64,000 bases of DNA from assembly GCF_002005445.1 (NCBI RefSeq), contig NZ_CP014692.1, positions 3,430,001-3,494,000 on the forward strand, in the 5' to 3' direction. Numbering within the stretch: position 1 is the first letter of the stretch; each line of letters starts with the position of its first letter. The notes below the pieces were generated by a model. That model saw only the letters and a list, made by a program, of their open reading frames with translations, had not been told where the DNA came from and did no database searches. Below are positions 27,309-62,916 of this stretch, piece by piece. The position numbers and the translations under genes are program-made. The DNA is from Acetobacter aceti (GTDB taxonomy: Bacteria; Pseudomonadota; Alphaproteobacteria; Acetobacterales; Acetobacteraceae).

Positions 27309-28994
27309 ATGTCCTTTCGCTCCCTGACACCCGACTTCGCCATTTCTCCTCAACTTTCCGTCGCAGATGTGAACGCGGCGGCGTCACAGGGTTTCAGGAC
27401 CATCATCTGCGCCCGTCCTGATGGTGAAGGCGCAGGACAGACTCCTGCGACAGAAATAGAGCAGGCAGCGCGCTGTCGAGGGTTGGAATTCGTGGCGATC
27501 CCCGTTCGTTCCGGTGCTTCGCCCGATGATAATGCTGTGGCAGCCATGAGCGCCGCATTGAAGCAGATGCCGGGACCAGTGCTGGGCTATTGCCAGAGTG
27601 GAAACAGGGCGGCGCGTCTCTGGGCGCTCACGCAGGTAGGCGCCCTGTCGAAAGACGCCATCCTGATGGCGGGAAGAGCGGCGGGAATTGATCTGTCCCC
27701 GTTGGGGGACCGTCTGGACGCGGCGTCACACTCCCCCCACAGTTCTGCGGGGAAAGCTCCGTCGCGCCGCTTCAACATCGTGATTGCCGGTGGCGGTGCG
27801 GCCGGTCTGTCCACCGCAGCCAGTATCCTGAAACGTCGACCGGATGTTTCAGTGGCGATCATCGAGCCTTCGACCAGTCATTATTATCAACCCGGCTGGA
27901 CACTGGTGGGTGGTGGTGTCTTTACACCCGAGCAGACACGGCGCTCAGAAGACAGGCTGATTCCATCCGGTGCAATATGGATTCGCCAGTCGGTCGCGGC
28001 CTTTCACCCCGATGCGCGGGAAGTGCTGCTGGATGACGGCAAAGTGTTGTCCTACGATATTCTGATTGTCGCAACCGGTCTGTCTCTGGACTGGGCCGGG
28101 ATTGCCGGCCTGACAGAGACTCTGGGCAGAAATGGCGTCACCTCGAATTATCGTTACGATCTCGCGCCCTATACCTGGCAGCTTGTGCAGGGATTATCGC
28201 GCGGCACGGCCCTGTTCACGCAGCCACCGATGCCCATCAAGTGTGCTGGCGCTCCCCAGAAGGCGATGTATCTCTCCTGTGATGCATGGCGGCGACGGGG
28301 TGTGTTGAAGGATATTTCCGTTCAGTTCGATACTACCACACCAGCGCTGTTTGGTGTGGCTGCCTATGTGCCCGCGCTTATGAACTATATCGAGCGTTAT
28401 GGGATCGATCTCAGGCTGCGCTCGAAGCTTATTGCTGTGGATGGACCCCAGCGTGTGGCGACTTTTGAACATGTAACGGATAACGGCACGACGCAGGTTC
28501 AGCGTTCCTTCGATATGCTGCATGTCGTGCCACCACAGGTCGCGCCGGACGTGGTCAAAAACAGTCCGCTTGCGGGCGCAGACGGATTCGTATCCGTGGA
28601 CCCGGCGACCCTGCGTCACACCACCTTTGCCGATGTTTTTGCTTTGGGAGACGTAGCCGGGACTTCGAACGCGAAGACAGCGGCCGCCGCGCGTAAACAG
28701 GCGCCTGTCGTTGCGGTCAATGCGCTTGCGGCGCTGGATGGCAAGGCTCCTGTCGCCATCTATGATGGTTATGGCGCGTGTCCTCTGACAGTCGAGCGCG
28801 GACGGATCGTGCTGGCCGAATTTGCTTATGGCGGCAAGCTGGAACCCACTCTGCCGCTGTGGCTGTTGCGGGGCACGCAACCAACCCGCCTTGCATGGTT
28901 CCTCAAGGAAAAAGTGATGCCGTCACTCTATTGGCATGGCATGCTGCGCGGTCATGAACTGCTGGCATCTCCCCGGAAAGCGCCGGGAGCCTGA
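27309..28994 (+). CDS. DUF442 phosphatase-like domain fused to sulfide:quinone oxidoreductase
   Basis: A 561-residue fusion. Residues about 1-115 are a DUF442 (TIGR01244-type) domain with the dual-specificity-phosphatase-like loop YCQSGNRAARLW (Cys95). After a linker, residues about 153-560 form an FAD-dependent disulfide oxidoreductase starting IVIAGGGAAGLSTAAS, with SHYYQPGWTLVGGG, KCAGAPQKAMYLSCDAW and a LGDVAGTSNAKTAAAARKQAPVV cofactor-binding end (read in parts), all typical of SQR. SQR oxidises H2S to persulfide and passes electrons to quinone at the membrane. In Xylella-type Blh the DUF442 domain is fused to the hydrolase instead. It precedes the exporter gene by 2 nt. Confidence 0.85.
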   Translation: MSFRSLTPDFAISPQLSVADVNAAASQGFRTIICARPDGEGAGQTPATEIEQAARCRGLEFVAIPVRSGASPDDNAVAAMSAALKQMPGPVLGYCQSGNRAARLWALTQVGALSKDAILMAGRAAGIDLSPLGDRLDAASHSPHSSAGKAPSRRFNIVIAGGGAAGLSTAASILKRRPDVSVAIIEPSTSHYYQPGWTLVGGGVFTPEQTRRSEDRLIPSGAIWIRQSVAAFHPDAREVLLDDGKVLSYDILIVATGLSLDWAGIAGLTETLGRNGVTSNYRYDLAPYTWQLVQGLSRGTALFTQPPMPIKCAGAPQKAMYLSCDAWRRRGVLKDISVQFDTTTPALFGVAAYVPALMNYIERYGIDLRLRSKLIAVDGPQRVATFEHVTDNGTTQVQRSFDMLHVVPPQVAPDVVKNSPLAGADGFVSVDPATLRHTTFADVFALGDVAGTSNAKTAAAARKQAPVVAVNALAALDGKAPVAIYDGYGACPLTVERGRIVLAEFAYGGKLEPTLPLWLLRGTQPTRLAWFLKEKVMPSLYWHGMLRGHELLASPRKAPGA

Positions 28995-53233: not shown

Positions 53234-56200
53234 TCAACTGATCAATCGTGCTTTTTCCGAACCAGTTTCAGGGAAAAGCGCCAGCGCGTGGCTCAGGGCG
53301 CTCTCGACGACGGTGATGTCCTGAGCCGTCAGATTTGTGCAGACCGTCGATTCTGACAATTCCTGATAAACACTGACATCGTTATGGATCTCTACGATCT
53401 TTTCTGCCAGTTCGTCGGCTGTTCTGGCGACAAGGGCTGTCAGAGGCCCATCCAGATCGAGCCCTTCGGCTGCGATGGGGGTCATGATGCAAGGGACGCC
53501 GCGAGCGTGGCTTTCCAGCACCTTGCCCTTGATGCCAGCGCCAAAGCGCAGAGGAGCGGCGCTGAGACGGGCTGAAGCAAAAAGGACGTCGAGATCCGGG
53601 GCGTGCCCGATGATCTCAACCCCCTCCCCTGCCAGGGCCTTGATGCTTTCGGGCATGGCGGCACCAGCGATGCGGAAGTGGATCGAGGAATCGCGCTGAC
53701 GCACGCGGGGAGCGATCTCTTCGATCAGCCAACGGGCGGCATCGACATTGGGGGCGTGGGTGTAATTTCCAAGAAAGACGACGCCGCTCCTGTCGCTGAA
53801 CGACCGCGCAGCCGGGGTGGCTGTGATGTCCCATGGAACGACGTGCACATTGGCTCGCGGCATATCACGACGGAGCAGATCGGCCTCAACATTCGAGTGG
53901 ACCAACACACTGTCGGCATTCGCAACGGCTGTGTATTCCGCCTGTTTCATCAGTCTGGCACGGGCCGCCAGTTCGGGACGCTGCTGCGCCACGGACTGAC
54001 GCGCCATACGGAGGAAATGGAGATCGGCCATGCTGTAGACGACCCGGGCATTGCGCTGGAATCGCCGGGTCAGCGCCTGATAGCGGGTCGCCATCTCTTC
54101 GCGGTGGAGATAGACGATCGCGAAGGCGTCCTCATGTTTGCGGAGCGCGTCCTCGACCCCGGTGTAGAAAGGCGCGGAGAGGACGGTGACGCCCGGAGCG
54201 GCTTCGGGAGTGTCCTGCCGTCCGATATCATCCGCAGCGATGAAGAACACGTCGTAACCAAGTCCGATCAGGGCCCGCATGTGTGAAAGAAGCGCACAGG
54301 AGCCGGCGTCACGCCGGGCGTCCGGGCGCAGTCCGTCGATGACCAGAGCGCGAGGGCGTCGTGCGGTCTCGGTCACGGGCAGACCGCGACGGCGACGGGC
54401 GCGGCTGAGCGCCACGGCTGTATCGCCCCCAAGACGGTCGGCGCGCTGACGCGTCAGACGGTCAAGCTGGCCCATAAGGAAAGACAGGACATGGTCCTGA
54501 TCCTCGGTCTCCGAGGCAGCCTCGATGACGCGACTGATGGCGGTTTCTGTCGCTGGATCCAGAGCCGTCATGGCCTCGATGACGACCGGGGCTCCGAGGA
54601 GAGCGCCGTCATGTTCGCGGCGAACCTCGATGACGTGACGGCTGAGAGGAGACAGACCCTCCGGCAGCAGCACGTCGAAGCCGCAGCGAAGCCCGCGCCC
54701 TGTTGTCGCGACGTCCGGACGATGGCCGTTGGCGACGGTGACAGCGATCAGCGTGCCGTTGTCGACGATTTGCAGGGCGACCGGCTGGTCGGGGGTCTGC
54801 GGGTCCCAGGCCCAGCCACCGATGCGGCCCCGTGTCGCGATGTCGACATAACCTTCGAGCGTGTCATGGCCCCCCGCCATGCCGGTGGCGGGCAGGATGC
54901 GCGTGATGGTGGCCGGAGCGACGGACGCTGTCTGGTCGAGCACCCACGGGCTGTTGCCGAGGCGGGCGTGGTCCGTCGTGCGACGGACTTCGATGACATG
55001 ACGTTCGAAGGGTGAGAGACCACCGGGAATGGTGAAGGAGAAGCCGACTGCGCCACCTGCGTCCGGACGAAGCTGGCGGGCCGTCACCTCACCCAGCACC
55101 ACGCCGCGATCGAGCACCTGCAGACGCACGGCGTCGTTTGCGCCGGATGTGCGCGCCCAGCCGCAGATTTCCGTGCGGGTGACAGTGTCGATGAACCCTT
55201 CGAGGGGCTGCTCCTCGCTGACTGGCAGGGTCAGACCGGCGATAACCGCAAGGCGGGTGCGGATGGCTTCGAGTTCCGGTCCCTGTTCGCAGCGCGGGGC
55301 ACAGTAGAGGGCCGGGCCGTTTTTTGCGTCCGGATAAAGCGCGGCATAGGTCGCGGCATTATGGAACATGCCGCGTGAGTTGTCGTCGATGAAGGTTTCG
55401 GACTGGACGCCGTTCGCGATGACGACGTCGTGGCTGTCCAGTTCGATGTGGAAATAGGACACCTCGTCCATGCGCCCGGCCTGAACGATGGACGTGCCGT
55501 TGACGAGAGTGACGGCCGGGATGAGGAGGCCGTCCAGCAGCATGGCGTGCAGCGGCGAGACCGAGAGGTCCGTATGCGGCAGGTTCTGTCCAAGCGAGCC
55601 TTTCCGGAAGATCACGGGCAGCACGTCGCGATTGCCGTGCGCGAACTGGCCGGAATAGGCGCGGCGGCCGATCCAGCGGATGGCGCGGGGACCGTTCTCC
55701 GCCGTCAGCACGGTGTCGCCGATGGAGAGCTGTTCGACGGGGACTTCGCCACGCTCGGTCAGGATGAGCGTGCCGCGACCGTAACAGGGGGTGCCATCCT
55801 GCACGACCGTGAGCAGGGTGTCGCCCTGTCCGTCATCGGAAAGCGAGAACTGCGACACATCGTAAGTGCCGTCGAGGGCGATGGTAAACTGGCTGTCGGC
55901 ACCGGTGATGGTCAGGTCAGAACCGCTGGTGAGCGACAGGCTGACATCGGAGCCGAAGACAAGATCGGAGAGATCGATCATGCCGCCGGAGAGCAGCGCC
56001 ACGTTATCGGCGGAAGCGCCGCTCGCCAGAGAGAGAAGACCGCCGGAGGTGATGGTGGCGTCCTGCACATAGCCGCCGGAAGCGATGCTGACAGTCCCGG
56101 CGATGGTTTCATTGACCGCGCCGCCGCGCGAACCGATGGTCTGGGCGCCACCCTGATCGATGATGACGCCGGAGGTCGCGCCGCCGACAATCTGAGTTCC

Positions 56201-59200
56201 GCCGGACTGGATTTCGACATCCGCCGCATAGCCTGCGTCGCTCGACCCGCCACCGCCTGTTGCGGTGAGGCCGGCATTGGCGGCGTTGATGGTCACACTG
56301 ACGGAGCCTGCGGCAATGGTCTGCTTGCTGCCCGAGCCGATGATGGTGCCGCTGGCGGTGCCATAGACGGCCTGATCGCCGCCTTCGAGGACGGTGCTGG
56401 TGGCTGATCCGTAGACCGACTGGTTACCGCCTTCGAGAATACGGGCGCTGACGACTTTTCCGCCGACGATGACATTCTGGAAAGCGCCATCGCCGATGGT
56501 GGCGGAAATGTCCGCGGCTCCGGAAGCGATGGTCTCGCTGCCCTCATCCGCGAGGGTGGTGAGGCTGGCGCCTGCACCGGTTTCGAGAGTGAGCGTGCCC
56601 GAAACAGTGGTGTCTGCCGCGATGCCACCGCTGGCGACATCCAGCGTATTGCCGGACCCTATGGTGGCCGAGAGCGTGCCGCCACCGGAGAGAATGAGGA
56701 GGGAGGAACTGCCGTCATCGAGCGTGAAACCGCTGACGGGGGCGGCGACAGCGGCGATGGGCCTGCCCGCGCCGTTGAAAAGGACTTCACCCGAGGAGAT
56801 GACAACGCCACCGGAATCGACGGTGTCGGTCACGGCTGCTCCCGCCATGACGATGAGTGTGCCACCCTCCTCCACGGTCTCGCCGGTGGCCGAACCGCCG
56901 GCGCTGACGAGCTCGATGGCTCCGGAAGAAATGGTGTCCGCGCTGGCGACGCCACCCGACAGGATAGTGACAGCACCGCCGGACTTTTCATGCGCGCTGG
57001 TCAGTGTGCCTGCGTCCATGATCTGGCCACCGGCTAGAACAGCGGTCTCAATGGCAGCGCCACCCTGCGAGATGACCTGCTGGCCTGTCAGACTGACGAC
57101 AGTGCGGCTGGCGACACCTTCGACAGTCTGTTCACCCGCGAGGACGAGAGTGAGGTTTGTGACACCGCCTGCCTGAACGTCTTCCAGCCCGGTCACAGCA
57201 TCGGATACGGCGACAGCGCCGGAAGCGACTGTCAGCACACCATCTGCGGTGACGATGGTGCCTTTAGCCTGTCCCCCGGACTGGAGCGTGGCGGATGTGT
57301 GGGCGCTATCGAGCAGAATACCCGAGGCCACGCCCGATACGGCGGAGACGATGGTGGTTCCCGACCAGATCACCATGCCGGAGGTGACGACGGCGCCACC
57401 ATTCTCGATGGTGTCGGTGGCGCTGCCACCATCGAGCACCACGAGGGTAGCGCCGGAGTTGACGGTCTCGCCGGAAACCACAGCGCCGGAGGAGACAATT
57501 TCAATGGCTCCGGAACTGAGGGTATCGCCAATGGCGGTCGCGCCGGTCTGCACGTTGAGGACACCACCATCCTCGACCGTAGCGCCCGTGATGACGCCCA
57601 GAACTTCGGCCTGACCGCCGCTTTCGATCTCGGTACCACTGGCGACGCCGTAGACGGTCTGATCGCCACCGGCGGAAACGGTTGTCTCGATTGCAGCGCC
57701 ACCCGCGGAGACGATCTGATAACCGTCGTTCATGACCTGTGTGGCGGAAGCGCCTCCTCCGCTCTGGATCACTTCAATGGCGCCGTAACCGCTGACGATG
57801 GTTCCGGCGGCGACGCCACCGGACAGGATCTCGACATCACCCGCGTCCTGCGTGGCCGCTGCGATGGCTCCTGATGAGACGGTGAGAATGACGCCTTGCC
57901 CGATCGTGGAATTTTCAATCGCGCCACCGGGAAGAACCTGAGCGTTTTCTCCGTAACCCTCGATATCGAGACCTGATGCGAGAGTGGAGATACCGGAAAT
58001 GACGCGACCTGCAGAGAGAACGAGCACGCCAGCGCTGATGATCTGGCCTCCGCTGGCAAGGGTGATATCTGCGACCGAGGCACCGCTCTGGAGGATGAGA
58101 GTGCCGCCATTCTCAACCGTTTCATTCGAAACGGTAGCACCGGAATCGACGATTTCGAAAGCGCCGGAGGTGATGGTGTCATTGCTGCCACTGCCACCGG
58201 AAAGAAACTCGGTGATACCACCGGAAGACGTCGTAAGGCCGGTCGCAGTCCCGGAAACCTTTTCCGTGCCACCGGAAAGCACGGTGCTGCCGGAACCGGT
58301 GGCACCACTCTCGATGATCTCTGTCCCGCCACTGCCGATCTGCGTGCCGATGGCTGCGCCAGACACATCCAGCGTAGCGTAAGCGCCTTTGACAATGGTG
58401 CCTCTGGCTGTTGCGCCAGAGGCCACCCTGACGATGCTGCCGTCCTGCGTATTGACCGCGGTGCCACCGGACAGCACGTCGAGCGTGCCGCCGGAAGTGA
58501 GAATGGCGGCATCGAGTTCACCACCAGCCATGACGACAGCGCTTTCCGTAACACTGTCGAGGATGATGCCGGAAACCAGTCCCGCAGTCGCAGAGGTGAC
58601 TGCACCGCTGGACGTGATGAACACACCAGCCGATACGATGCTGCCGCCCTCATCCACAGTGCCGCTGACGGTAGCGCCGGGGAGCACCAGCAGCGTTCCG
58701 CCAGTGGACAGAACTTCGCCGATGGCGGAAGCGCCAGCGGAGATGACTTCGATGCCGCCGCTTTCGATCACGTCATATTCGGCCGTTGCGCCGGAGGAGA
58801 CGATGTTCAGGCCACCGCTTTTCACGGTGCCGCTGATGGTTGTTCCCCTGATCTGCTGGACACCGCCGGACCCGACCGTGATGGCGGATGTTGTAGCGCC
58901 CGCCGCGACGTTGAGAGTGCCGCCATCTGTGAGCGTAGCGCTCTCGATCAGGGCGCCTCCACTCATGTTGGCGTAGGCCGAGCCGGAGAAAGCGCCACCG
59001 TTCAGGACGCCGCCGGAAGAGACGATGACGTAGCCGCCGCTATCGAGTTCGTAGTTCGAGCCGACGCCGGAAATACGCCCCGAGCCGCCGTGGATTGCGA
59101 CGTCGATGGCGGTCGCACCGGCGCTGACTCCGAGATAACCATTATCTTCAAGCACGATGTGGGAGAGCACGCCACCGAAGTGCTCCCAGATGTTGCCTCC

Positions 59201-61105
59201 ATCCTCGACTGTCAGATCTTCACCGGTACCGCCTGCCCAGATACGAAGGACACCGGAACTGCCTATGGTGACGCCAATGGCGTCGCCACCGGAGGAAATA
59301 TGACTGGAACCTGTCATTTCCGAACCGCCGGAAAGCTGCCCGCCAGCCAGGACCGTGACGCTTCCGCCCTGGATGTTCGTGGCCTTGCCGCCGGACAGGA
59401 TCGTGGCGCTGGCGTTGTCATCAAGGTTGATGTTCTGCGCGGCACCGCCGTCATAGACCGTCAGTTCGCCGCCGCTGCCGACAGCGAGGCGAGAAAGAAC
59501 ATTTTCGGCGGCGTCAACGATGCCGCCATTGGATGTGACGACCACGGTCGCCGAGATGACCCGCGCGCCGGAAGCAAGAGCCATGTCCGAGACTGAAGCG
59601 CCGGACATGACGACAAGAGTCGCGCCGGATTCAAGAGTCTCGTTGCTGGCCGAACCACCGGACCAGATGATTTCGATGGCGCCCGAGGCGAGCGTGTCGC
59701 TCTCGGCAACACCACCGGCACTGATATTGAGCGAGGCGCCGGACTGGAGGGTAAGACCGCTGACCTGCCCGGTTACGATTTCAATACCGCCAGTCTGCAC
59801 CGTTGCATTGACGGACCGTCCGCCCGTACTGACAGTCTCGATAGCACCAGACTGCACGGTGGTGCCGGAGGCTGTGCCACTGACATCCAGTTCGGCACCG
59901 GAGGCAAGAACGGCGTTGGTAATATCCGCCCCGCTTTCGACAATGACATTGCCTGCATTCTGGACACCGGAAAGGCTCATCCCGGAGAAGACGTCGAGCG
60001 TTGTACCGCTGGCGACAGTCAGGCTGCTCAGGTCGCTATCAAGCGCGATGGCGCTGACGAACTGCCCGGCGGACTGGAGAATGGCCCCTGCGCTGATGAT
60101 GATGCCACCTGCATTGGTGATATCCGCGGCCTGAGCACCCACCGCGATAACCAGCTCGCCTCCGGAAGAGACGGTTTCCCCAGAAACACCCGCACCGGCG
60201 CTGACAATTTCCAGACCGCCGTCAGTGATGACGTCACCGCTTCCTGTTGCCCCGCTGGTGAGGATATCGAGCCCGCCGGAAGCAATGATGGCGCTGACTG
60301 TTGTGCCGGCGACCTGCTGCTGGCCGCCTGCGCTGACAGTGACGTTACTGGTGGCGGCGCCAGCGGAAACATAAAGGACTGCGCTATCGAGGACGGTGGC
60401 CTCATTGATGGTGGCGCCATTGCTCATCATGGCGTAAGCGCCGGTATCGAACCTGGCGTTGCTGAGCACGCCGCCGGAGGAAATCCAGAGATAGGCGCTG
60501 TTGGTGAGCGTGTAGTTCTCGCCGGTGCCGGAGATGCGTCCCGAGCCACCGTTGATCGTGACGTCCGAGGCAGCGCCGCCGGCGCTGATGCCGACATAGC
60601 CGCCGCTTTCGATCACATCGACACCACTGACATAACCGCCGGAAGAAACCCAGAGATAGGCACCACTTTTCACTGTTGTGTCGAGAGCTTCACCGCCGGA
60701 TGAGACACGGACAATGCCCGAAACACCCTGGATTGTGGTGTCTGAGGCGATCGCGCCCTTGTAGACATAGATGGTCGTGCCGGAGGTTGTGGAGGCGGAA
60801 ACGGAAAGACCGCCGGAGCTGATGATGAGGGCTCCAAGACTCTCGCTGCTGACGCCGCCGTTATAGACGTAGAGCATGCCACCGTCGGTGAGCTGGGCAT
60901 CCTCGATGACGCCGCCTGAGAGAACGCTTCCGACTGCTCCTGACGCAATAACGATATTTTCTGCGTTCCCGTTGGCGGAGATGACAAGCTTCCCTCCTGC
61001 CGCGACCGTACCGGCGAGGACGGAGCCACCGGACTGGAGCGTCAACGTGTCTCCAGACTGGATGGAGACGGAGCTTTCTGTCGAAGAAAGTGTGGAGGAA
61101 GTCAT
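53234..61105 (-). CDS. Giant strand-loop-strand repeat protein with Hint and glycosyltransferase domains
   Basis: A 2,623-residue protein. Residues about 10-1765 are near-uniform autotransporter-passenger strand-loop-strand repeats (AIDA type; units such as VLSGGVIEDAQLTDGGMLYV and IVSSGATAEYDVIESGGIEV) with SGG/SGA turns about every 19-20 residues, predicted to form a long beta-helix. A Hint domain starts at Cys1774 (CYGRGTLILTERGEVPVEQL, then LSPLHAMLLDG in variant form) and runs to about 1910. Two copies of a GWAW-type beta domain follow (about 1970-2065 and 2083-2175; each has RHVIEVRR). Residues about 2250-2610 are a GT-B glycosyltransferase (VVFLGNYTHAPNVDAARWL, FGAGIKGKVLESHARGVPCI). 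There is no signal peptide, beta-barrel or visible anchor. The divergent heptosyltransferase is the likely modifier. Confidence 0.85.
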   Translation of the reverse strand: MTSSTLSSTESSVSIQSGDTLTLQSGGSVLAGTVAAGGKLVISANGNAENIVIASGAVGSVLSGGVIEDAQLTDGGMLYVYNGGVSSESLGALIISSGGLSVSASTTSGTTIYVYKGAIASDTTIQGVSGIVRVSSGGEALDTTVKSGAYLWVSSGGYVSGVDVIESGGYVGISAGGAASDVTINGGSGRISGTGENYTLTNSAYLWISSGGVLSNARFDTGAYAMMSNGATINEATVLDSAVLYVSAGAATSNVTVSAGGQQQVAGTTVSAIIASGGLDILTSGATGSGDVITDGGLEIVSAGAGVSGETVSSGGELVIAVGAQAADITNAGGIIISAGAILQSAGQFVSAIALDSDLSSLTVASGTTLDVFSGMSLSGVQNAGNVIVESGADITNAVLASGAELDVSGTASGTTVQSGAIETVSTGGRSVNATVQTGGIEIVTGQVSGLTLQSGASLNISAGGVAESDTLASGAIEIIWSGGSASNETLESGATLVVMSGASVSDMALASGARVISATVVVTSNGGIVDAAENVLSRLAVGSGGELTVYDGGAAQNINLDDNASATILSGGKATNIQGGSVTVLAGGQLSGGSEMTGSSHISSGGDAIGVTIGSSGVLRIWAGGTGEDLTVEDGGNIWEHFGGVLSHIVLEDNGYLGVSAGATAIDVAIHGGSGRISGVGSNYELDSGGYVIVSSGGVLNGGAFSGSAYANMSGGALIESATLTDGGTLNVAAGATTSAITVGSGGVQQIRGTTISGTVKSGGLNIVSSGATAEYDVIESGGIEVISAGASAIGEVLSTGGTLLVLPGATVSGTVDEGGSIVSAGVFITSSGAVTSATAGLVSGIILDSVTESAVVMAGGELDAAILTSGGTLDVLSGGTAVNTQDGSIVRVASGATARGTIVKGAYATLDVSGAAIGTQIGSGGTEIIESGATGSGSTVLSGGTEKVSGTATGLTTSSGGITEFLSGGSGSNDTITSGAFEIVDSGATVSNETVENGGTLILQSGASVADITLASGGQIISAGVLVLSAGRVISGISTLASGLDIEGYGENAQVLPGGAIENSTIGQGVILTVSSGAIAAATQDAGDVEILSGGVAAGTIVSGYGAIEVIQSGGGASATQVMNDGYQIVSAGGAAIETTVSAGGDQTVYGVASGTEIESGGQAEVLGVITGATVEDGGVLNVQTGATAIGDTLSSGAIEIVSSGAVVSGETVNSGATLVVLDGGSATDTIENGGAVVTSGMVIWSGTTIVSAVSGVASGILLDSAHTSATLQSGGQAKGTIVTADGVLTVASGAVAVSDAVTGLEDVQAGGVTNLTLVLAGEQTVEGVASRTVVSLTGQQVISQGGAAIETAVLAGGQIMDAGTLTSAHEKSGGAVTILSGGVASADTISSGAIELVSAGGSATGETVEEGGTLIVMAGAAVTDTVDSGGVVISSGEVLFNGAGRPIAAVAAPVSGFTLDDGSSSLLILSGGGTLSATIGSGNTLDVASGGIAADTTVSGTLTLETGAGASLTTLADEGSETIASGAADISATIGDGAFQNVIVGGKVVSARILEGGNQSVYGSATSTVLEGGDQAVYGTASGTIIGSGSKQTIAAGSVSVTINAANAGLTATGGGGSSDAGYAADVEIQSGGTQIVGGATSGVIIDQGGAQTIGSRGGAVNETIAGTVSIASGGYVQDATITSGGLLSLASGASADNVALLSGGMIDLSDLVFGSDVSLSLTSGSDLTITGADSQFTIALDGTYDVSQFSLSDDGQGDTLLTVVQDGTPCYGRGTLILTERGEVPVEQLSIGDTVLTAENGPRAIRWIGRRAYSGQFAHGNRDVLPVIFRKGSLGQNLPHTDLSVSPLHAMLLDGLLIPAVTLVNGTSIVQAGRMDEVSYFHIELDSHDVVIANGVQSETFIDDNSRGMFHNAATYAALYPDAKNGPALYCAPRCEQGPELEAIRTRLAVIAGLTLPVSEEQPLEGFIDTVTRTEICGWARTSGANDAVRLQVLDRGVVLGEVTARQLRPDAGGAVGFSFTIPGGLSPFERHVIEVRRTTDHARLGNSPWVLDQTASVAPATITRILPATGMAGGHDTLEGYVDIATRGRIGGWAWDPQTPDQPVALQIVDNGTLIAVTVANGHRPDVATTGRGLRCGFDVLLPEGLSPLSRHVIEVRREHDGALLGAPVVIEAMTALDPATETAISRVIEAASETEDQDHVLSFLMGQLDRLTRQRADRLGGDTAVALSRARRRRGLPVTETARRPRALVIDGLRPDARRDAGSCALLSHMRALIGLGYDVFFIAADDIGRQDTPEAAPGVTVLSAPFYTGVEDALRKHEDAFAIVYLHREEMATRYQALTRRFQRNARVVYSMADLHFLRMARQSVAQQRPELAARARLMKQAEYTAVANADSVLVHSNVEADLLRRDMPRANVHVVPWDITATPAARSFSDRSGVVFLGNYTHAPNVDAARWLIEEIAPRVRQRDSSIHFRIAGAAMPESIKALAGEGVEIIGHAPDLDVLFASARLSAAPLRFGAGIKGKVLESHARGVPCIMTPIAAEGLDLDGPLTALVARTADELAEKIVEIHNDVSVYQELSESTVCTNLTAQDITVVESALSHALALFPETGSEKARLIS
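55376..55786 (-). other. Hint domain within the giant protein
   Basis: The block from Cys1774 to about residue 1910 has the Hint_2 pattern: CYGRGTLILTERGEVPVEQL, IGDTVLT, IRWIGRRAYSG, HTDLSVSPLHAMLLDGLLIP, LVNGTSIVQ, YFHIELDSHDVVIANG and ETFIDDNSRGMF. Hint folds cleave or splice their own backbone at the N-terminal Cys/Ser; here cleavage would release the repeat region from the glycosyltransferase half. Activity is not shown. Confidence 0.75.
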
Positions 61106-61566
61106 GAACAGTCTACTCCGCGCACCCGGCAGTCATGGTGTTCGACAGGACTGACCGCACGGGGAAAGGTGACTGTCCGTGTGTTACGAAAACAGCTTCT
61201 ATCCAGCACGAAAAATCCGGCTTTCAATCCATCGCCAAACATTGGTTTTGATTTTCTGTGATTTTGAGGAATATTTCCGGAACCAGACACACCACGTCAC
61301 ACAGAAAGTTTTTGTTAACTACTTTTGATGACGGCTCATCAGCAAGTGACGTTTCAATGACGGATTTATGTCATTGTTTTTTGTCTCTTTACTTTTATCC
61401 GCAATCGGTTTCTCGGTTCCCCAGGTTCTTTTGGTGCCGGAAGATATCGTGAAGCCTGGTTCCCTCTTCGGGGATATTGGCGGATCGACACTCTTTGGGG
61501 TCTTGGGTGTTTTAACACGCATGCACGACATTTTCTGGCGGTTCAACAGGTTTGCAGACGGACGGC
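61106..61566. other. Divergent promoter region, giant gene / heptosyltransferase
   Basis: 461 bp between the starts of the giant gene (61105, minus) and the heptosyltransferase (61567, plus). It probably contains both promoters. A hydrophobic 71-codon frame at 61368-61583 (+) lacks a ribosome site and overlaps the heptosyltransferase start. Confidence 0.5.
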
Positions 61567-62916
61567 ATGACAGATTCAAATGATGTGACTTCGGGCCCTT
61601 CCACTCCCCCTGTCAGTGTTGAGGCCTCTGCGATGACCACCGCCGCGCCTTCGGCGTCCACATCCACGAAAGATGAGAAGAAGGCGTTCGTGAGTCCGGC
61701 CACGCTTCCGACACAGGAGGGACCGGATGGCATCCGGTATGATTTCAATCTTGGCTGTCGGGTTCAGCTTCCTGACGGAAAATGGACGATCCGCCTGACT
61801 GATCTGGACACAGGCAACATTCTGTTCGAAACCACCGCGGGCAAGGCTACGGTGAACAGCGCCAAGCGGTTTTATGTTCGTTTCGGTATCGAGGTGAAGG
61901 ACGCGACAGACACTGTCTTCACGCATGAGTTCGACTGCCGGGACCGTGATGTGCTGGTGCAGCTTCCTGTTGGTACGCTGGGCGACACTCTGGGCTGGTT
62001 TCCCTACGTCGCCCGTCTGGGCGAGGTGCGTGGCTGCCGTCTGACCTGCGTGATGGCGGCGCCGATCATTCCGCTCTTTCGCGCGACCTATCCTCAGATC
62101 ACCTTCATCACTCCCGAGGAACTGGAGGGCAGCGATCGTTTGAAATCCTTTTATGCCACCTATACGCTTGGACTGTTTTTCGAAGATTCAGCGCATGTGT
62201 GGCAACCGAGTGATTTCCGGCTTGTCGGTCTGCATCGTACGGCGGGTTATATTCTGGGTGTCGATCCGACAGAGGAACCGCCTGAGATTGCGCCGGACGA
62301 GGATCCGTCACGACCGATCGAGGAGCCTTACGTCTGTATTGCGGCGCAGAGCAGTTCACAGTGCAAATACTGGAACAATCCGGATGGCTGGCGACAGCTC
62401 GTAGCGTTTCTGCAGGAGAGCGGCTATCGCGTGATCTGTATTGACCAGAAACCTGTGCATGGCACGGGTATTGTCTGGAATCACATTCCCTATGGAGCAG
62501 AGGATCAGACGGGCAACCGGTCTCTGGCCGAGCGTGTGAGATGGTTGCGTCATGCGGCTTTTTTCGTAGGGCTGTCGAGTGGCCTGTCGTGGCTGGCCTG
62601 GGCTGCTCGCTGCAGGGTTGTCATGATTTCGGGTTTCACCCATCCGACAAACGAGTTTCATACGCCCTGGCGCATCATCAACTGGCATGCCTGCAACTCC
62701 TGCTGGCATGATCCTGCCTGTCGTTTCGATCACAAGGATTTCCTGTGGTGCCCGCGTCACGCGGGCACTGGGCGACAGTTTGAATGCACGCGGCTGATTA
62801 CTGTGGAGCATGTGAAGCGGGTGATCAGAACGATTCCGGATTTTTCGTCGGTGAACGTCACTGCGGAGAAGATGGAGGATTCGAAAAACCCCTTTGATGT
62901 GAATGTCTGTCAGTAA
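61567..62916 (+). CDS. Autotransporter strand-loop-strand O-heptosyltransferase (TibC/Aah type)
   Basis: A 449-residue glycosyltransferase. After a disordered Ser/Thr-rich start of about 50 residues, a small beta domain (RYDFNLGCRVQLPDGKWTIR) precedes a GT-B core with LPVGTLGDTLGWFPYV, CIAAQSSSQCKYWNNPDGWR, LSSGLSWLAWAARC and the HPTNEFHTPWRIINWHACNS motif. The BAHT iron finger is visible as Cys376, Cys379, Cys385 and Cys395. TibC and Aah attach heptose from ADP-heptose to Ser residues in strand-loop-strand repeats, the repeat type of the divergent giant protein. I used the ATG at 61567; the longer frame begins with TTG. Confidence 0.88.
   Translation: MTDSNDVTSGPSTPPVSVEASAMTTAAPSASTSTKDEKKAFVSPATLPTQEGPDGIRYDFNLGCRVQLPDGKWTIRLTDLDTGNILFETTAGKATVNSAKRFYVRFGIEVKDATDTVFTHEFDCRDRDVLVQLPVGTLGDTLGWFPYVARLGEVRGCRLTCVMAAPIIPLFRATYPQITFITPEELEGSDRLKSFYATYTLGLFFEDSAHVWQPSDFRLVGLHRTAGYILGVDPTEEPPEIAPDEDPSRPIEEPYVCIAAQSSSQCKYWNNPDGWRQLVAFLQESGYRVICIDQKPVHGTGIVWNHIPYGAEDQTGNRSLAERVRWLRHAAFFVGLSSGLSWLAWAARCRVVMISGFTHPTNEFHTPWRIINWHACNSCWHDPACRFDHKDFLWCPRHAGTGRQFECTRLITVEHVKRVIRTIPDFSSVNVTAEKMEDSKNPFDVNVCQ

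Follow-up and report, generated by a model that had tools for sequence, protein, structure and literature searches.

A modular Hint–GWAW–glycosyltransferase tail behind a strand-loop-strand passenger in Acetobacter aceti

Introduction

What joins a passenger of autotransporter-type repeats, a Hint domain and a glycosyltransferase (GT) in a single protein, and what becomes of the parts? The locus that raises this question lies in a 64,000-nucleotide stretch of Acetobacter aceti DNA (contig NZ_CP014692.1, positions 3,430,001–3,494,000; hereafter the window), where a minus-strand open reading frame (ORF; window positions 53234–61105) stands beside a divergent, plus-strand gene (61552–62916) for a TibC/Aah-type autotransporter heptosyltransferase (BAHT). 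An earlier reading of this DNA from its letters and ORFs (the sequence-only reading) had proposed a self-processing, doubly glycosylated surface or secreted fibre. Our analysis indicates that the system is real, conserved, recurrent and more general than that reading had it: the parts themselves are known, and what appears new against the literature searched is a portable Hint–GWAW–GT tail, the derivation of that tail from two fused genes and an abrupt step in cysteine content where it begins.

The account that we favour, with slightly less than even confidence, is that the window protein is made as a precursor which processes itself and yields a glycoprotein for secretion or for the cell surface; it would be glycosylated in the cytosol, its passenger would be set free by Hint, and export would follow a route other than autotransport. 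Synthesis of the cysteine-free passenger would take place in the cytosol, and the BAHT encoded next door would add O-linked heptose to its serines, while the GT of the tail would modify, in cis, the precursor to which it is joined through the GWAW domains. The Hint domain would cut between Pro1773 and Cys1774, an N–S acyl shift being followed by hydrolysis of the thioester, and so set the passenger free; the tail would remain in the cytosol after the cut, and the passenger would exit without a Sec signal or a barrel, perhaps via the genome's HlyBD-type system. The anatomy, its conservation, the modularity of the tail, the linkage of fused and paired genes, the cysteine step and the lack of PF03797 are observed; within this scheme we infer the cleavage, the activity and acceptor of the GT, the order of the steps and the exporter.

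A single open frame with conserved domains

The frame encodes 2,623 residues without internal stops, and Pfam, NCBIfam and ortholog comparisons divide it into a strand-loop-strand (SLS) passenger, Hint_2, two GWAW domains and a GT4-type domain, bearing out the one-polypeptide architecture that had been read from the letters. The passenger (residues 1–1773, 55787–61105), delimited also by its lack of cysteine and by hydropathy, consists of about 1,770 residues of repeats: the SLS repeat TIGR04415 matches in 28 stretches (E 1.6e-87) and the AIDA stalk of Pfam in five, placing it in the SLS/AIDA group, while a tandem-repeat search on the DNA returned no rows. Hint_2 matches residues 1773–1908 (Pfam, E 9.7e-45), and alignment columns set the domain at 1774–1908 (55382–55786). 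Behind it come a conserved segment (1909–1960, 55226–55381; conserved R1911, F1914, N1916 and G1942), then GWAW domain 1 (1961–2075, 54881–55225) and GWAW domain 2 (2076–2195, 54521–54880), both delimited by sequence comparison. The GT4-type domain (2246–2600, 53306–54370) is defined by invariant residues and by Pfam, where Glyco_trans_1_4 matches 2441–2576 (E 3.8e-21; 76.3 bits against a cut-off of 27) and Glyco_trans_4_4 matches 2276–2424 weakly, below its cut-off.

Among 49 genomes of the genus, three others contain whole-protein orthologs, each in one open frame, with identities of 90% (G284), 69% (Acetobacter conturbans, G252) and 58% (A. fallax, G256) and matches spanning query residues 1–2622, 1–2609 and 9–2578. 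Against G284, the ratio of nonsynonymous to synonymous substitution (dN/dS) stands at 0.09 for the repeats, 0.16 for GWAW and 0.11 for both Hint and the GT, with the linker inside the range 0.09–0.16 and a 73-codon junction at 0.21; against G252 and G256 the same parts give 0.13–0.33. Whole-length orthologs and low dN/dS fit neither an error of assembly nor a tail in decay. A scan of genome contigs returned three Acetobacter loci and two weak Pseudomonas matches. Across 337 sampled genomes of the alphaproteobacterial class (E 1e-60, two candidates scored per genome), the matches listed included a joined Hint–GWAW–GT for just two genomes, G000 and G056, which belong to the window's family; in G471 the GWAW–GT match occupied a separate frame, and in G535 Hint and a cut-off GT match stood apart. 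A few metagenome proteins carry Stellaceae or Beijerinckiaceae source names.

A reusable tail formed from a gene pair

Protein searches (101 matches from one and the best 120 of 514 from another) gave 207 sequences including the query, of which 171 contain both Hint and GT. The passengers ahead of this tail, typed from a precomputed Pfam column, are varied. Nuclease-, RTX- or phosphatase-type passengers occur in 15 of the 171 fused proteins: ten with PF03372 (one source-named 'putative extracellular nuclease/glycosyltransferase'), P0031, P0190 and P0203 with PF08548, with or without PF00353, and P0156 and P0182 with PF09423, the last two types being what we take to be M10/RTX and phosphatase. 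P0201 has PF12951, others have SLS/AIDA repeats, and many have no family. No BAHT was found in the 20 kb around each of two nuclease-type loci, L111 (protein P0017) and L117, the latter encoding a protein 91% identical to P0007 over 899 residues. Given these loci and the variety of passengers, the tail is not a device for heptosylated repeats alone, and a GT specific to heptosylated repeats is ruled out as a general rule. The sequence-only reading had the fused GT add a second sugar to the repeats; with passengers as unlike as nuclease, RTX and phosphatase types ahead of this tail, the GT is not tied to heptosylated repeats, and such an addition could be one case at best, with a doubly glycosylated product as its putative outcome. 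Overall, the Hint–GWAW–GWAW–GT tail looks like a reusable, modular maturation device.

The relation between GT and Hint was followed in 38 GWAW–GT matches starting at query residue 21 or earlier, from 150 genomes of the family with up to nine candidates scored in each (G096:C39 is omitted although Hint-adjacent). In 14 of 37 the GWAW–GT sequence shares a single open frame with a Hint ahead of it, and another 12 have a same-strand Hint within 4 kb upstream; the 38th match, G030:C29, proved to be one open frame in a separate search and stands outside the linkage count. A Hint was therefore fused or upstream at 26/37 GWAW–GT genes versus 2/20 control GT4 genes (Fisher p 1.6e-5), the controls being GT4 relatives without a GWAW2 match, hand-picked down the same list and mostly one per genome. 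Six split pairs (L100, L101 (window's genome), L134, L140, L141 and L150) have one GWAW domain on each side of the gene border, so that a passenger–Hint–GWAW gene is followed by a GWAW–GT gene; this count omits L135 and L143, where ORF calls are unclear, as well as A. fallax L110, with two GWAW domains on each side, and L112, with one and two.

The tail is a fusion of this gene pair. Cooperation between the Hint protein and the GT is therefore read from the fusion and pair linkage and from a border that falls between the GWAW domains, and the window protein reads as a gene-fusion witness that the two work together. In the best GT tree (quick method; 57 fused and 24 unfused rows, 81 in all, leaving aside G003, whose frame contains a stop, as well as many other loci and fused proteins), the states fused, split and alone required eight changes against a shuffled mean of 22.5, and the starred branches force two changes for the fused label. 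Judging from titles and the beginnings of abstracts, none of the open-licence PMC papers returned by full-text searches describes the layout, in keeping with the earlier impression that it was undescribed; it is not unique, however, as it recurs in Acetobacteraceae and also as adjacent genes. The genome itself has nine full Hint_2 genes, two of them GT-fused, two followed by a GT gene and five with neither.

Two loci show further arrangements of the same parts. In G064 (L135:9011–18880) a BAHT gene lies between the SLS–Hint gene and the GWAW–GT gene, making a three-gene set. In G235 (L142:6244–11390) there are two consecutive Hint–GWAW units, the second GT-fused and the first with a short partial GT match, as if by duplication.

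The cysteine step

Cysteine is absent from all 1,773 residues of the window passenger, and the pattern extends to 150 of the 171 fused proteins with passengers of at least 150 residues. Their passengers contain 24 cysteines in 97,757 residues (0.25 per 1,000) and none at all in 129 of the 150, against 12.8 per 1,000 in Hint, 10.0 in GWAW and 14.9 in the GT; for comparison, the figure for sixteen long window ORFs is 12.5. The change falls at the first residue of Hint (Cys1), with 0 cysteines per 15,000 residues in the 100 positions before it and 181 per 15,000 in the 100 after. These counts are not independent events, since the set holds about 12 near-alike proteins of 1,101 residues. The 15 passengers with PF03372, PF08548 or PF09423 have 2 cysteines in 12,354 residues, and because these non-SLS passengers are also nearly cysteine-free, the step is not merely a matter of beta-helix composition. 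A fused relative in G217 (L113_2, 4,306 residues, locus L113:1070–15411), encoded right behind a BAHT gene, has none in its first 3,418 residues. Because the rise in cysteine coincides with the bond predicted to be cut, passenger and tail probably end up in different compartments, the passenger going to an oxidising or extracellular place and the tail not. An alternative cause would be avoidance of thiols that would attack the thioester.

The neighbouring heptosyltransferase

The BAHT gene is divided from the fused ORF by a divergent intergenic region (61106–61551) in which a promoter and terminator scan found nothing exceeding shuffled sequence. Its product belongs to TIGR04414 (643.8 bits against a cut-off of 200), matches TibC_1st (93 bits) and scores 455 and 454 bits against the solved TibC structures 4rb4 and 4rap. 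Excerpts of PMC4358343 give the TibC iron-finger cysteines as Cys339, 342, 358 and 370 and the catalytic residue as Asp110; all four cysteines and the Asp110 position are matched in the window BAHT when aligned with 4rb4, where position 110 is Ala (the D110A mutant) and in the window BAHT Asp. The divergent TibC/Aah-like enzyme with a four-cysteine iron finger, and its pairing with the 28 SLS stretches alongside, thus stand as first described. The BAHT frame begins with TTG, and translation may actually start at an ATG five codons further in. The genome also has a heptose-activation gene (TIGR02198, 380.6 bits against a cut-off of 345) and three BAHT genes in all; judging from its family, the window enzyme would O-heptosylate the passenger on serines. 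Within 1.5 kb, 2 of 30 BAHT loci have a Hint.

A further BAHT gene of this genome (L103:10517–11863, G000 C1:2678.7 kb) is 84% identical to that of the window and has no SLS or Hint match in 20 kb.

GWAW domains and the glycosyltransferase

The two GWAW domains, each about 115 residues long, contain a GWA[RW] motif. They share 43% identity over 109 residues and match no Pfam family at E 0.1, which makes GWAW a candidate new domain family. GWAW is present singly or in pairs, and it is found ahead of free-standing GT4 genes as well. In the GT, N2453, D2455, A2456, G2481, P2518, R2520, G2522, G2524, K2528, E2547 and G2548 are invariant in 50/50 aligned rows. The domain resembles the GT4 kind of TIGR03087 and Glyco_trans_1_4 in a C-terminal GT4 half with NxDA, PLRxGxG and EG motifs (TIGR03087 score 88.3, below the cut-off of 316.65), but differs in being fused to a passenger through Hint and in not keeping EX7E, the catalytic motif of GT4 enzymes. 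The closest solved GT in a PDB sequence search with alignment A1 was PimB' (3okc, E 0.0014), and the same search with the tail alone gave 0 matches. Matches of alignment A1 to ribosomal protein L18 (E 0.0002–0.07) were taken as chance. The labels 'GT-B' and 'beta domain' are putative, drawn from family membership and appearance.

Evidence against the favoured account

Several observations weigh against the favoured account. The first Glu of EX7E is present in 0/50 rows (Ala2523 in 49/50), and the position of the second, 2531, is Glu in 19, Asp in 21 and another residue in 10; because the motif is absent, GT catalysis is likely though not secured. Cysteines precede Cys1 in L136_9 (GT-fused; 3 in 255 residues), L131_7 (2 in 226), L106_5 (2 in 623) and L135_10 (12 in 1,752), with 1 or 2 in several others, and some of these ORFs may have been assigned a wrong start. 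Three of the 12 adjacent Hint and GT gene pairs are split by a single in-frame stop and may be broken fusions. SLS-like sequence occurs in the 1.5-kb flanks, which are short, of 10/30 BAHT loci. An export signal at the C-terminus would lie in the GT part and would be lost upon cytosolic cleavage. Among the matches listed for 70 genomes, at least five HlyD–Hint pairs lie less than 35 kb apart on the same contig (6, 12, 17, 21 and 33 kb), but these were picked by eye and with no chance expectation, and clustering of Hint_2 with HlyD is not clear; for that reason the exporter is unproved. Finally, 11/37 GWAW–GT genes have no Hint in the 3.4–11 kb of upstream DNA examined.

This last count favours an alternative in which the GT serves general envelope polysaccharide synthesis and its fusion to Hint passengers reflects neighbourhood drift, as does the fact that most GT4 enzymes build polysaccharides. 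Drift would not lead us to expect fusion and adjacency in unlike lineages with unlike passengers, a Hint linkage far exceeding that of the controls or a gene border between the GWAW domains, and we consider it unlikely, if the least improbable of the alternatives.

Export route

No signal peptide was recognised in the window protein: the stop-to-stop frame is only nine codons longer than the ORF, and N-terminal hydropathy is 1.35 versus 1.9–2.3 in five hand-picked controls (values of at least 2.0 occur in 5/132 fused proteins). Pfam shows no C-terminal beta-barrel in the protein, and the autotransporter barrel PF03797 is absent from the 3.7-Mb genome, the control search having found it in E. 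coli and Caulobacter. With protein and genome both lacking a barrel, a classical autotransporter (type Va) is ruled out here. The window system is like AIDA-I/Aah and TibA/TibC in having an SLS passenger and, next to it, a BAHT that keeps the catalytic Asp and the cysteines of the iron finger, but it lacks both a recognisable signal peptide and the barrel, and its passenger runs instead into Hint–GWAW–GWAW–GT.

The only HlyD above cut-off in the genome (G000 C1:3134453) lies about 350 kb from the window gene and 344 kb from the nearest Hint_2 gene, so that HlyB/HlyD genes are not found beside the window substrate gene, an arrangement usual for type I secretion though not strictly required. This HlyD and a HlyB-like ATP-binding cassette (ABC) partner are clustered with TPR-GT2-GT4, GT4 (PF12000) and Sel1 proteins (L132:433–12152, G000 C1:3126–3138 kb), the hlyB/hlyD genes themselves occupying L132:8448–12152. 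At L131:6420–12681 (G000 C1:48–55 kb), a 578-residue Hint_2 protein has three neighbours: an ABC exporter with a C39 peptidase, an HlyD that scores lower (98.6 bits) and a 130-residue ORF with a leader-like GG stretch. Directly upstream of SLS–Hint genes at L102:2887–4977 (window's genome) and L110:865–2949 (A. fallax) is a PF04185 phospholipase C/phosphoesterase gene, the L110 product also having a Tat signal match.

An alternative is that the whole precursor is exported, for example by type I secretion, and that Hint cuts outside, the tail being a sugar-binding anchor and not an enzyme. It would accommodate the lack of a recognisable signal peptide, the HlyB/HlyD genes of the genome, the lesser HlyD/C39-ABC pair adjoining another Hint protein and the degenerate EX7E, and also the P0031 passenger, whose RTX repeats and presumed zinc-protease motif we take to mark a usual type of type I substrate. 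It sits poorly with a cysteine-containing tail behind a nearly cysteine-free passenger, with purifying selection on the GT domain and with the occurrence of the same GT as a separate gene; we give it a small chance.

Hint processing

Under the account that we favour, Hint would release the passenger in the cytosol, and its key residues are those of a self-processing domain: Cys1774 as nucleophile, Ser1850-x-x-His1853, His1886, His1892 and Glu1903. Among the 50 rows of alignment A1, which gives the count without selection for the motif, and taking those with a letter at the position, Cys1774 is kept in 40/40, His1853 in 43/44, and His1886, His1892 and Glu1903 in 47/47 each. In a set selected for the motif C[YF]xx[GS]T (163 of the 171 fused proteins, where the Cys count holds by construction), Ser1850 and His1853 are present in 162/163 and the position ahead of Cys1 holds Pro (117 proteins), Ala (36), Thr (9) or Leu (1). 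Nucleophilic Cys1 and the block-B His, which mark the Hint/Hog type, are thus both present; the catalytic residues agree with the self-cleaving type assigned by the sequence-only reading, and self-cleavage may be expected. Splicing inteins end in His-Asn, and neither such a pair nor a downstream nucleophile was seen in the alignment A1 columns, which is why Hint is expected to cut on its N side and not to splice.

According to excerpts of PMC9163320, hedgehog Cys258, Thr326 and His329 serve the N–S shift, and cholesterol bound by the sterol region attacks the thioester. A comparable ligation could be imagined here, in which Hint passes the C-terminal carboxyl of the passenger, as a thioester, to a sugar or glycolipid hydroxyl held by GT/GWAW; the passenger would become lipid- or glycan-anchored, and unrelated secreted proteins would be capped by one portable tail. 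The position of GWAW–GT behind Hint, where in those excerpts hedgehog has its sterol-recognition region, would suit this, as would a Hint end of AxG..E[ST]F in place of the intein pair, the coupling of Hint to a GT across unlike passengers and a GT without EX7E. The window domain shares with Hog and bacterial intein-like Hint domains Cys1, the block-B His and a place behind a secreted-type passenger, but its block B reads S-P-L-H (SxxH instead of TxxH), no equivalent of the hedgehog general base D303 could be assigned from sequence, and it has GWAW and GT behind it, no sterol region and no splicing residues. Thioester hydrolysis is simpler, and PDB sequence searches returned no hedgehog chain, their Hint-like matches being an intein and a BIL domain (E 0.1–0.2). 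We regard ligation, and the anchoring that would follow from it, as unlikely, a shade more so than export of the whole precursor.

The weakest alternative, that a frameshift or assembly error joins separate genes, has in its favour that related loci carry the parts as two genes, but three orthologs share the fused frame and Hint and GT occur together in 171 of the 207 retrieved proteins, so that this explanation, which the sequence-only reading had named as its possible refutation together with absence from relatives, is ruled out for practical purposes.

Hint_2 (PF13403) proteins of Acetobacteraceae likewise have the domain behind large repeat passengers. PMC2362128, in its available excerpts, deals with other Hint types, and PF13403 appears in the part of PMC12487129 that tabulates functions enriched in fast growers. 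Elsewhere in the window (27309–28991), a single ORF combines a beta-lactamase-hydrolase-like phosphatase domain (PF04273) with a pyridine-nucleotide disulfide oxidoreductase.

Implications

A self-cleaving tail with its own modifying enzyme could serve protein glycoengineering. The locus raises the questions of what Hint joins or releases and how barrel-less SLS proteins exit the cell. If the favoured account is true, SLS proteins and BAHTs in a genome without the autotransporter barrel need another exit route, and in Acetobacteraceae several kinds of secreted protein are coupled to a GT by a portable tail that removes itself.

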